35,945 bases of DNA from an uncultured Thermomicrobiales bacterium (lineage in GTDB: Bacteria; Chloroflexota; Chloroflexia; Thermomicrobiales; UBA6265), in NCBI GenBank assembly GCA_902806325.1, contig CADCWE010000235.1:1-35945 (forward strand), in the 5' to 3' direction. Positions 8,164 through 15,583 of the stretch are shown piece after piece (position 1 is the first letter of the stretch; each line of letters starts with the position of its first letter). Under the pieces are notes generated by a model. The model did not search any database and was not told the DNA's origin. It saw nothing but the letters and a program-made list of their open reading frames with translations. A program made the translations under genes and the position numbers.

Positions 8164-9039
8164 ATGGAACCGACGTTCTACGCCGACTACTACCGCCACG
8201 AGAACACCCACTGGTGGTTCCGCTGGCGGTTCGACCTGATCACCGGCATCGTCCGGGCGTTGCGCGACGACGCGGCCGGAGAGTTACAGATCCTTGACGC
8301 CGGCTGCGGCACCGGGCAGATGCTCCAGCATCTCGAGCGCTACGGCCGTGCGATCGGAATCGATACCGCCAAGGAAGCGATCCACTACGCAGCCACGCGG
8401 GGCGTGGATCGGCTGGTGCTCGCCTCGGTCGATTGCCTCCCGTTCGCGGACGCGACGTTCGACTGCGTGCTCTCGTTGGACGTGATCGAGCACGTCGCCG
8501 ACGACGCGGCGATGGTCCGTAGCCTCTACGATGCGGTCAAACCCGGCGGTCACCTGATCGTGACGGTGCCGGCGTTCAAGTCTTTGTGGTCCAGTCACGA
8601 CGAGGTGAACTGGCACAAGCGGCGCTACACCGCGTCGGAGTTGCGCCGGTTGGTGGCGGAGACCGGGCTGGAGATCGAGCGCCTGACCTACTGCAACACG
8701 GCGCTCTTCGCGCCGATCTTTGTCGCCCGCAAGATCAAGAACCTGCGCGAACGGCTCTCCCGCAGGCACGCGATGGCCAGGCCCGAGATCTCCGACCTCA
8801 GCGAGTTGCCCCGGCCCGTCAACGAGGCGCTCTATCGCCTCCTCCAGGCCGAAACGCGGCTGATGCGGCGGACGAATCTTCCCGTTGGGGTCTCGCTGCT
8901 GGCCGTGGCGCGGAAACCGCTGCCGGCCGTCGTGGTGGCCGCGGCGCGGACGGACGTGGCCGAACCCTCCGTCGTGGCGCTGGAGCCGATTCCGGTCGCC
9001 CTCCGAGAGCCGGTCGTTGAGGAAGTCGCGGTCGGGTGA
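8164..9039 (+). CDS. Class I SAM-dependent methyltransferase
   Basis: The 291-residue product begins with YRHENTHWWFRWRFDLI, the HWWF.xR leader typical of methyltransferases in glycan and lipid gene sets. SAM motif I follows (ILDAGCGTGQM, residues about 43-53), then an acidic residue after the second strand (IGID), LPFADATFDCVLSLDVIEHV and the post-motif VKPGGHLIVTVPAF, as in Methyltransf_11 proteins. The SHDEVNWHKRRYT segment is shared with that subgroup. The last 40 residues are a low-complexity Val/Pro/Ala tail. The frame is open upstream to 7597 but that part overlaps the glycosyltransferase on the other strand, so I start at the ATG at 8164, where the conserved region begins, with GAGGAAGAGGGA upstream. 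The substrate is unknown. It converges with the TPM gene, leaving ten bases between stops. Confidence 0.88.
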   Translation: MEPTFYADYYRHENTHWWFRWRFDLITGIVRALRDDAAGELQILDAGCGTGQMLQHLERYGRAIGIDTAKEAIHYAATRGVDRLVLASVDCLPFADATFDCVLSLDVIEHVADDAAMVRSLYDAVKPGGHLIVTVPAFKSLWSSHDEVNWHKRRYTASELRRLVAETGLEIERLTYCNTALFAPIFVARKIKNLRERLSRRHAMARPEISDLSELPRPVNEALYRLLQAETRLMRRTNLPVGVSLLAVARKPLPAVVVAAARTDVAEPSVVALEPIPVALREPVVEEVAVG

Positions 9040-13448: not shown

Positions 13449-14030
13449 CTAGCGCGAGGCCGATTCGGGGGCGGTCAAGCGCAGGAGCGCGGCCAGCAGG
13501 CGGTCGCGGGTCTCGGGGGCGGGCGGAGCGAGGCCGAACGCCTCGGCCAACATCAGCCCGTCGGCGGCCAGGCGGACGACGGCGGCGAGGTCGGGGTCGA
13601 TCCCGTCGTCCTCCAACCGCGCCTGCCAGTCGGCGTAGCGCGCCCGCAGCGGATCGAGCAGGGCCGGGTTGGTGCCGAGGGCGGCGAGGAGGGCGGCGCC
13701 GACGGCAACGGGATCGGCGGGTTGACTGGTCGGCGCGAACGTGGCGCGGACGAAGGCGCGGGTGCGGCGCCCGATGCGGCGGGGATCGGCGGCGGCCTCG
13801 GCGTCCTGCTCGAGGGCGACGGCGTCGGCCAGGCGCTCGACCAGACCGGCGACGAGGGCGTCTTTGCTCGCGAAGTGGTAGAGAACGCCGCCCTTGCTCA
13901 ACCCGGTCTCGCGGGCCACCGCGTCGAGGGTCAGCCGGGCGGCGCCGTCCCTCGCCACGATCCGCTCGGCGGCGGCGAGCAGCCGATCGCGGGTGGCGGC
14001 GCTGGGGCGAGGCTGGGCGGGGTGGGCCAT
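13449..14030 (-). CDS. TetR-family transcriptional repressor
   Basis: The 193-residue product has the N-terminal TetR helix-turn-helix: TRDRLLAAAERIVARDGAAR, then LTLDAVARETGLSKGGVLYH and FASKDALVAGL. The GLSKGGVLYHFASK recognition region is close to that of TetR proteins of the TetR_C-type group that control small efflux pumps. The C-terminal ligand domain is helical and variable, and its inducer cannot be predicted. A promoter at 14037-14065 places the likely transcript start at or next to the ATG, so translation may be leaderless. Downstream on the same strand lies the frame-broken SMR gene, which this repressor probably once controlled; the repressor frame itself is intact. Confidence 0.9.
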   Translation of the reverse strand: MAHPAQPRPSAATRDRLLAAAERIVARDGAARLTLDAVARETGLSKGGVLYHFASKDALVAGLVERLADAVALEQDAEAAADPRRIGRRTRAFVRATFAPTSQPADPVAVGAALLAALGTNPALLDPLRARYADWQARLEDDGIDPDLAAVVRLAADGLMLAEAFGLAPPAPETRDRLLAALLRLTAPESASR

Positions 14031-14127: not shown

Positions 14128-14379
14128 TTAGGCCGCTTCCGCCATCGCCGCCGGCAGCTCGTCCACGCCGACGTAGAAGGTGTGGCGGGGGATAAAGGCG
14201 ACGCCGCGGACGGGGAGGGCGGGCGCCTTGGGATCGTTGCCGAGGTCCTCGGCGTCGGCGTTGGAGGTTAGGCAGGCGGCGGGGGGGCGGCCGAACTTCT
14301 CTTGGTAGCGCTCGCTGGCTTCGGCGAGTTTGGCGCGGGCGGGCTTCTTCTTGTCGGGGTCGTACCAGCCGAGAAACAT
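14128..14379 (-). CDS. Uncharacterised 83-residue protein behind an SOS-like promoter
   Basis: The product starts MFLGWYDPDKKKPARAKLAE and continues with a helical ERYQEKFGRPPAACLTSNAD segment, then a beta-like end containing VRGVAFIPRHTFYVGVDEL. Small proteins opening MFLGW(F/Y)D..KK and holding a 'KFG.RP....' motif occur in Chloroflexi; I know of no assigned function. There is no signal peptide or membrane helix, so it should be cytoplasmic. I chose the ATG at 14379 because GGAGGG lies seven bases upstream. A start at 14427 is ruled out in practice because it would overlap the -10 box. The promoter 50-75 bases upstream carries a perfect GAAC-N4-GTTC palindrome between its boxes, so control by LexA is the main clue to its role. 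Confidence 0.8.
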   Translation of the reverse strand: MFLGWYDPDKKKPARAKLAEASERYQEKFGRPPAACLTSNADAEDLGNDPKAPALPVRGVAFIPRHTFYVGVDELPAAMAEAA

Positions 14380-14425
14380 CGTGCTACCCTCCCTCGGTGC
14401 GCGCCGCTCGGTGTGCCACGCCGTC

Positions 14426-14454
14426 ATTATACTAGAACACTAGTTCTAATACAA
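14426..14454 (-). promoter_or_regulatory. Promoter with LexA-type (SOS) box in its spacer
   Basis: On the minus strand TTGTAT (14454-14449) is followed after exactly 17 bases by a perfect TATAAT (14431-14426). The spacer contains the 16-base palindrome TAGAAC-ACTA-GTTCTA (14433-14448 on the plus strand), whose core GAAC-N4-GTTC is the LexA/DinR box of Gram-positive bacteria and Actinobacteria. A repressor bound there would cover the whole promoter. The expected transcript start near 14419 leaves about 40 bases to the ATG at 14379. The boxes and palindrome are plain in the sequence; assignment to LexA is inference from the motif. Confidence 0.72.
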
Positions 14455-14493
14455 GCGGTCCGCACCCGCGGCGGCGCCGCGGGTGCGGACCGC
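14455..14493. repeat. Perfect 18-bp hairpin between divergent genes
   Basis: GCGGTCCGCACCCGCGGC (14455-14472) is exactly complementary to GCCGCGGGTGCGGACCGC (14476-14493) around a three-base GGC loop. It directly abuts the -35 box of the SOS-like promoter and lies upstream of rsmH. There is no T-run on either side, so it is not an ordinary intrinsic terminator; it could insulate the two divergent units, extrude as a cruciform, or be a repeat element. Confidence 0.75.
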
Positions 14494-14569: not shown

Positions 14570-15583
14570 ATGGCCGCGGTGCTGACGGCGCCGGTGCCGA
14601 CCGAACGCGAGCGCGGGACTGGCGTGGGGCACCGCCCGGTGTTGTTGGCGGAGGCCTTAGCCGCGCTTGCCGTGCGTCCGGGCGGGCGCTATCTCGACGG
14701 CACCTTCGGCGGCGGCGGGCACACGCGGGCGATCCTGGACGCCAGCGCGCCGGACGGTCGGGTGCTCGCGCTCGACGCGGACCCGGCGGCGGTGGCCCGT
14801 GCCCTGGCGATGGCGCGGGAAGACGGGGATCGCCTCCGCGTCCGGCACGCCAACTTCGCGGCGTTGGCGGCGGTGTGCCAGGAGGAGGGGTTCGCCACCG
14901 TGGACGGGGTGTTCCTCGATCTCGGGTTGTCGTCGTTCCAGCTCGACGAAGCGGAACGCGGCTTCGCCTTCCGCTTCGACGGGCCGCTGGACATGCGGTT
15001 CGACCCCAGCCGGGGCGAACCGGCCGCCGCGCTGGTCAACGGGTTGGCGCCCGAGGCGCTGGCCGATCTGCTGTTCCGCTACGGCGAGGAACCCCGCTCG
15101 CGCCGGATCGCCGCCGCGATCGCCCGCGAGCGGACGACGGCGCCCTTCGCCTCGACCGCCCGCCTCGCCGCCGTCGTCGAGACCGCCCTGGGCGGGCGGC
15201 GTGGGCGCGACACCCACCCCGCGACCCGGACCTTTCAGGCCCTGCGGATCGCGGTCAACGCGGAGCTGGACGTGCTCCCGGTGGCCCTGCGCGGCGCGGT
15301 CGAGGTCTTGCGCCCGGGGGGGCGATTGGCGGTGATCGCGTTCCACTCGCTCGAGGATCGGATCGTCAAGCAGTTCATCGCCGCCGAGAGCGCGGCCTGC
15401 GTCTGCCCGCCGCGCCAGCCGGTCTGTACCTGCGCCCAGGTGCCGCGCCTGCGCAAGCTGCCCGGCAAGGCGATCCGGGCGTCCGCCGAAGAAACGTCGG
15501 CCAACCCGCGGAGCCGGAGCGCGGTGCTGCGCGCGGCGGAACGCCTCCCACGTCCCGACGAGCGCCCGGAGACCGCCCGATGA
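14570..15583 (+). CDS. rsmH: 16S rRNA (cytosine1402-N4)-methyltransferase RsmH (MraW)
   Basis: RsmH methylates N4 of C1402 in the ribosomal decoding centre and is normally the first or second gene of the division/cell-wall cluster. The 337-residue product has the family start GHRPVLLAEALAALAV, the SAM-binding YLDGTFGGGGHTRAILD, VFLDLGLSSFQLDEAERGFA with FRFDGPLDMRFD, and the C-terminal IAFHSLEDRIVKQFI motif. It also has the Cys cluster CVCPPRQPVCTC near residue 285, seen in many RsmH proteins. The ATG at 14570 has AAGGTGG upstream; in-frame starts further upstream add a non-conserved segment. Its stop overlaps the murF start (ATGA). No mraZ precedes it. Confidence 0.96.
   Translation: MAAVLTAPVPTERERGTGVGHRPVLLAEALAALAVRPGGRYLDGTFGGGGHTRAILDASAPDGRVLALDADPAAVARALAMAREDGDRLRVRHANFAALAAVCQEEGFATVDGVFLDLGLSSFQLDEAERGFAFRFDGPLDMRFDPSRGEPAAALVNGLAPEALADLLFRYGEEPRSRRIAAAIARERTTAPFASTARLAAVVETALGGRRGRDTHPATRTFQALRIAVNAELDVLPVALRGAVEVLRPGGRLAVIAFHSLEDRIVKQFIAAESAACVCPPRQPVCTCAQVPRLRKLPGKAIRASAEETSANPRSRSAVLRAAERLPRPDERPETAR

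Follow-up and report, generated by a model that had tools for sequence, protein, structure and literature searches.

Results

Organization of the C0 locus

The window, that is, the whole stretch of 35,945 nucleotides analysed from an uncultured Thermomicrobiales bacterium, carries on its minus strand a small gene (14128..14379), here named C0, whose 83-residue product consists of a predicted beta-alpha-beta-alpha-beta-beta domain and a disordered tail ending in AEAA, and is predicted to be an SOS protein. A Shine-Dalgarno-like sequence, AGGGAGGG (14387..14394, minus strand), lies 7 nt before the ATG at 14379. The minus-strand promoter reads directly as TTGTAT-TAGAACTAGTGTTCTAG-TATAAT, with the -35 box at 14449..14454 (ATACAA on the plus strand) and the -10 box at 14426..14431 (ATTATA on the plus strand), the latter keeping an equivalent position in relatives. 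The 17-bp spacer between the boxes (14432-14448, plus-strand numbering) is filled by the palindrome TAGAAC-ACTA-GTTCTA (14433..14448; TAGAACACTAGTTCTA on the plus strand), a putative LexA-type operator that is also present upstream of C0 homologs. The arrangement of the two boxes around the palindrome and the 83-residue open reading frame, both described in an earlier note on this DNA, were found to be exact. The full 16-mer has a single exact match within the window, and the bare core GAAC-N4-GTTC, seen twice against 0.62 expected, is not rare. The second core, TGGAACCGACGTTCTA at 8165-8180, is probably a chance occurrence.

Directly upstream of the C0 promoter lies a perfect 19-bp inverted repeat with a 1-nt loop (14455..14493), which has a folding z-score of -6.4, indicating a strong hairpin, and is possibly a terminator or insulator between divergent units. 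Beyond it runs the divergent rsmH gene, also known as mraW (14570..15583, plus strand), with which the dcw cluster begins at this locus and which is a conserved neighbour of C0. On the other side, 97 bp downstream of C0, a TetR regulator is encoded (13449..14030, minus strand); it is not conserved with C0 and is probably not part of the same unit.

The LexA motif of the genome and the order

One clear lexA gene was present in the genome, and its TTGACA/TATACT promoter contains GAACATTCGTTC (CGAACATTCGTTCG); GAAC-N4-GTTC was likewise observed no more than 130 bp upstream in each of the 30 lexA loci retrieved from the order. In the genome-wide regulon scan, which consisted of pattern searches, the exact TAGAAC-N4-GTTCTA motif was recovered at 3 sites in 4.17 Mb, as compared with 0.008 expected by chance according to our own estimate from base composition (about 73% G+C). 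These sites are the C0 promoter, a position on contig C169 preceding an open reading frame with an IMS domain (Y-family polymerase), and one locus of unknown genes. A degenerate site, TAGAAC-AAGT-ATTCTC (TAGAACAAGTATTCTC), whose core departs by one base, lies about 100 bp upstream of recA. The expectation that recA, lexA and a polymerase gene would share the site thus held for the core at lexA and for the exact site at the Y-family polymerase gene, with recA carrying only the degenerate form. On the strength of the lexA promoter, the 30 lexA loci, the recA site and the IMS-domain frame, the motif is best read as that of the LexA of this lineage. Matches with one or two mismatches showed no enrichment (33 vs 51 for the reversed control), and therefore only exact sites count as evidence by themselves.

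The same scan disclosed further sites. Two LexA-like boxes lie 27 bp apart on contig C165 (L020:4827-4869) ahead of a 213-aa protein, and exact or one-mismatch sites precede proteins of 119 aa (L018:7090-7105, contig C265) and 131 aa (L022:2710-2725, contig C47), which are additional SOS candidates; none of the three proteins has a Pfam match.

Distribution of the site and of C0 homologs in Chloroflexota

C0 homologs were detected in 84 of the 158 genomes of the class and in 86 of 400 genomes sampled across the phylum, with named matches within the class in Thermomicrobiales, Thermobaculum, Chloroflexales and Herpetosiphonaceae. About half of the class genomes, including the whole sampled family f5, had no detectable homolog, from which it follows that the protein is dispensable.

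Conservation upstream of homologs was the decisive test. In the class, 20 host loci have the exact core no more than 150 bp upstream of C0, where local density predicts 0.008 per locus (the raw count, 21 of 46 loci, includes one weak match in a phage contig). In 15 more class loci it stands ahead of the gene preceding C0, which in nearly all of them is a DUF6504-like frame, the assignment having been made by Pfam in one tested member. Taken as directly before C0 or before its operon, the core accompanies about 35 of 42 host loci in the class and 31 of the 40 loci read outside it. Of those 31, 7 have it immediately before C0 and 24 at a greater distance upstream, where it nearly always stands at the start of an operon containing an ATPase gene followed by C0. 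Since the loci share ancestry, the counts are not independent trials, though many families are spanned. The window's arrangement, with the core inside a 17-bp spacer between the promoter boxes, was observed at ten loci in all, mostly from Thermomicrobiales, and in the Thermobaculum group the core overlaps the end of the -10 box. As regards membership of the SOS regulon, both a motif match at the genome's own lexA and conservation upstream of orthologs were found, which supports the earlier reading of the palindrome as a LexA/DinR-type site.

The mraZ promoter served as a negative control, and the core was found within 200 bp of it in none of 15 Thermomicrobiales-type loci. Some Chloroflexales-type loci (L081, L082, L083, L084, L088, L089 and L092) have a core 30-47 bp ahead of mraZ; altogether 7 of the 30 mraZ genes seen have an upstream core, none of them in Thermomicrobiales-type loci, and this suggests LexA control of the dcw cluster in those Chloroflexales-type loci. 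When genomes lacking C0 were inspected for a LexA-box gene beside mraZ, 4 of 17 loci showed a core, but none had a small SOS gene that was convincing.

In 11 of 14 Thermomicrobiales-type loci (L057, L059-L065 and L067-L069; 0.02 expected per locus) a second palindrome, centred on CGTACG (often GCGTACGTACGC), was noticed to precede the LexA box, about 60-135 bp upstream of C0; in L069 it lies inside a LexA box. It is absent from the window, and is a candidate site for an undescribed regulator or a candidate element of another kind.

Characteristics of the C0 protein

An alignment of 38 C0 homologs displays invariant W5, D7, K17 and G71. AlphaFold2 modelled the beta-alpha-beta-alpha-beta-beta domain with confidence (mean pLDDT 87.9) and predicted a disordered end, the tail scoring below 50. 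Searches of Pfam, NCBIfam, PHROGs and PADLOC returned no family for the protein, and sequence and fold searches of the PDB gave no confident match and no close solved structure; resemblances to the HK97 capsid and to small phage proteins were weak and were not taken as evidence. The earlier description of a protein of no known function therefore holds in the family libraries, with the addition that the protein represents a conserved, phylum-wide family.

The tail is the variable part. Of 19 Thermomicrobiales-type homologs, 17 end in Ala-Ala, as compared with 0 of the 73 conserved genes in their neighbourhood; the ending is missing from most homologs in Chloroflexales and beyond the class. We take this ending to resemble ssrA-type ClpXP signals, and clpX is present in the genome. 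In Escherichia coli, the SOS protein RecN is cleared by ClpXP via C-terminal signals (PMC10714372). By analogy, the Thermomicrobiales tail would be a ClpXP-degron-like signal, from which we infer degradation of C0. Other lineages exhibit basic tails, with RRKxK endings or long K/R-rich stretches. Five long tails of distant homologs contain QATLW, QVSLW, QTSLW or QPLSLW, which resemble the mycobacterial ImuB clamp-binding motif QLPLWG (PMC10421592); QxSLW-like motifs occurred in 0.1 to 0.6 percent of shuffled tails. These clamp-motif-like elements sit in the long, K/R-rich, disordered-looking tails of loci L210, L216, L217, L219 and L221. The window's own C0 protein has a short, acidic tail with neither a clamp-like motif nor a basic stretch.

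Operon partners and phage copies

Among the operon ATPases tested, those at L190 and L193 are clear FtsK_SpoIIIE members, and the others are weaker P-loop relatives. At L190, which represents one distant family, lexA stands just before the FtsK-like gene and C0 belongs to the same cluster. The DUF6504 partner is presumably of the stand-alone ImuB-C kind. The stand-alone ImuB-C domain proteins encoded in SOS mutasome operons are roughly 80 aa long and SOS-linked (PMC3765255). C0 shares this size and, by prediction, this linkage, but the Pfam searches matched it neither to DUF6504 nor to any other family. The genome from which the window comes yielded no DUF6504, and its single FtsK gene showed no box in the stretch fetched, so these partners do not explain the C0 copy in the window. 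Three viral contigs (L099, L100 and L101) also carry C0 relatives, directly behind DnaB in two of them and near a VapE-like gene in the third.

Discussion

C0 as a candidate SOS effector

This study indicates that C0 very probably represents a conserved LexA-controlled family of SOS effectors, as judged from the pairing of operator and gene. The earlier suggestion of an uncharacterised DNA-damage-response protein is thereby strengthened, since the pairing recurs in many Chloroflexota families. The predicted operator shares with the LexA/DinR operator of Gram-positives and Actinobacteria its core, its palindromy, its position inside a promoter and its presence at lexA and a Y-family polymerase gene, whereas here it is predicted from sequence and occurs in Chloroflexota. 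It is thus of the known GAAC-N4-GTTC class, and the protein is, by sequence, not a SulA, YneA/SosA or DUF6504 protein. Like RecN of E. coli, C0 would be LexA-controlled and, by inference, cleared by ClpXP through C-terminal residues; RecN, however, is an SMC-like ATPase and C0 a small domain without a catalytic signature.

Release of LexA repression by RecA-driven cleavage is the established mechanism of the SOS response. Read from the operator, the regulation of C0 would follow the same course. With the operator in the spacer of a sigma-70-type promoter, LexA bound there would block RNA polymerase in the absence of damage; upon DNA damage, RecA filaments would provoke self-cleavage of LexA and C0 would be transcribed. 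Its product, a small soluble domain, would then have an accessory role at DNA, the likeliest place of action being the replication fork or a chromosome under repair or segregation. In some lineages it would be co-expressed with DUF6504 or a short FtsK-like ATPase, and in Thermomicrobiales the C-terminal Ala-Ala could let ClpXP clear it after recovery. An accessory role at DNA or the replisome is the function that we favour, tentatively and at somewhat less than even chances, on account of the operon partners, the phage copies beside DnaB, and the basic and QxSLW tails.

Alternative interpretations

The main rival to this accessory role is a division checkpoint, in which C0 would likewise be under LexA but would function analogously to SulA, YneA or SosA, inhibiting cell division by blocking the divisome until ClpXP clears C0. 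C0 and the mraZ-rsmH-pbp-mur dcw cluster run divergently at about 30 of 46 loci, an arrangement that favours such a role, but the dcw neighbourhood was not generally seen in the sampled outgroups. Division inhibitors of Gram-positives are encoded in clusters with lexA (PMC6851548), as C0 is at L190, and the small size and degron-like C-terminus of C0 would suit a checkpoint protein. In these respects (a small protein under predicted LexA control, with a degron-like tail and a gene near division or lexA genes) C0 resembles SulA, YneA and SosA, yet it is a soluble beta-alpha-beta-alpha-beta-beta domain with no sequence similarity to them. An inhibitor of the YneA/SosA/DivS type would be expected to have a single transmembrane segment and often LysM, and C0 is soluble, with no transmembrane segment, LysM or Pfam domain; nor is a relationship to SulA detectable, no match to that family having been obtained in Pfam, NCBIfam or the PDB. 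The phage copies in replication modules, and the basic and clamp-motif tails of some lineages, which point to DNA, also speak against it. We regard the checkpoint role as possible but doubtful.

It is improbable that C0 is a phage-derived factor for replication or counter-defence, domesticated under SOS and acting on phages rather than in repair. The relatives beside DnaB or near VapE-like genes in three viral contigs, and a weak fold resemblance to uncharacterised phage proteins of roughly 80 aa, are in its favour, but the family looks vertically inherited, its chromosomal synteny is conserved, and neither PADLOC nor the GenBank phages gave a match. Less probable still is that the TetR encoded at 13449-14030, a binder that the earlier note had allowed for, has its operator in the palindrome. 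The tetR gene does lie close by on the same strand, but no tetR was found in any other homolog locus that keeps the box, the site matches the core of the lexA self-operator, and no site of this kind precedes tetR itself, so that this option was set aside. A chance palindrome in an ordinary promoter is hardly credible, for although the window's pair of cores carries no significance alone and near matches in the genome stand at background, the exact 16-mer exceeds its expectation by far and the site is conserved upstream of homologs in many families.

Significance for Chloroflexota

The favoured accessory role at DNA could be part of something wider, although we put this forward only as a speculative extension: C0 might be the shared member of an SOS module specific to Chloroflexota that acts at damaged forks, clamp- or helicase-associated, together with a short FtsK-like translocase or DUF6504, and links fork repair or clearance of the chromosome to the division cluster next to it. 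As regards chromosomes, a passage of PMC3323433 names Sphaerobacteraceae among the groups with several of them. Our literature search found no description of the C0 family or of a Chloroflexota LexA regulon, and one elsewhere is possible; little appears to have been written, in the literature searched, on the SOS response of this phylum. As predicted from its sequence context, C0 would constitute an undescribed effector family within that response, and, if the reading of a fork-acting module is true, a new kind of SOS effector. It bears on whether Chloroflexota use a new checkpoint or a new fork-protection protein, and, as a phylum-wide putative effector whose operator is defined, whose partners recur and whose tail is degron-like, it may offer a testable entry to damage handling in a deep-branching phylum.
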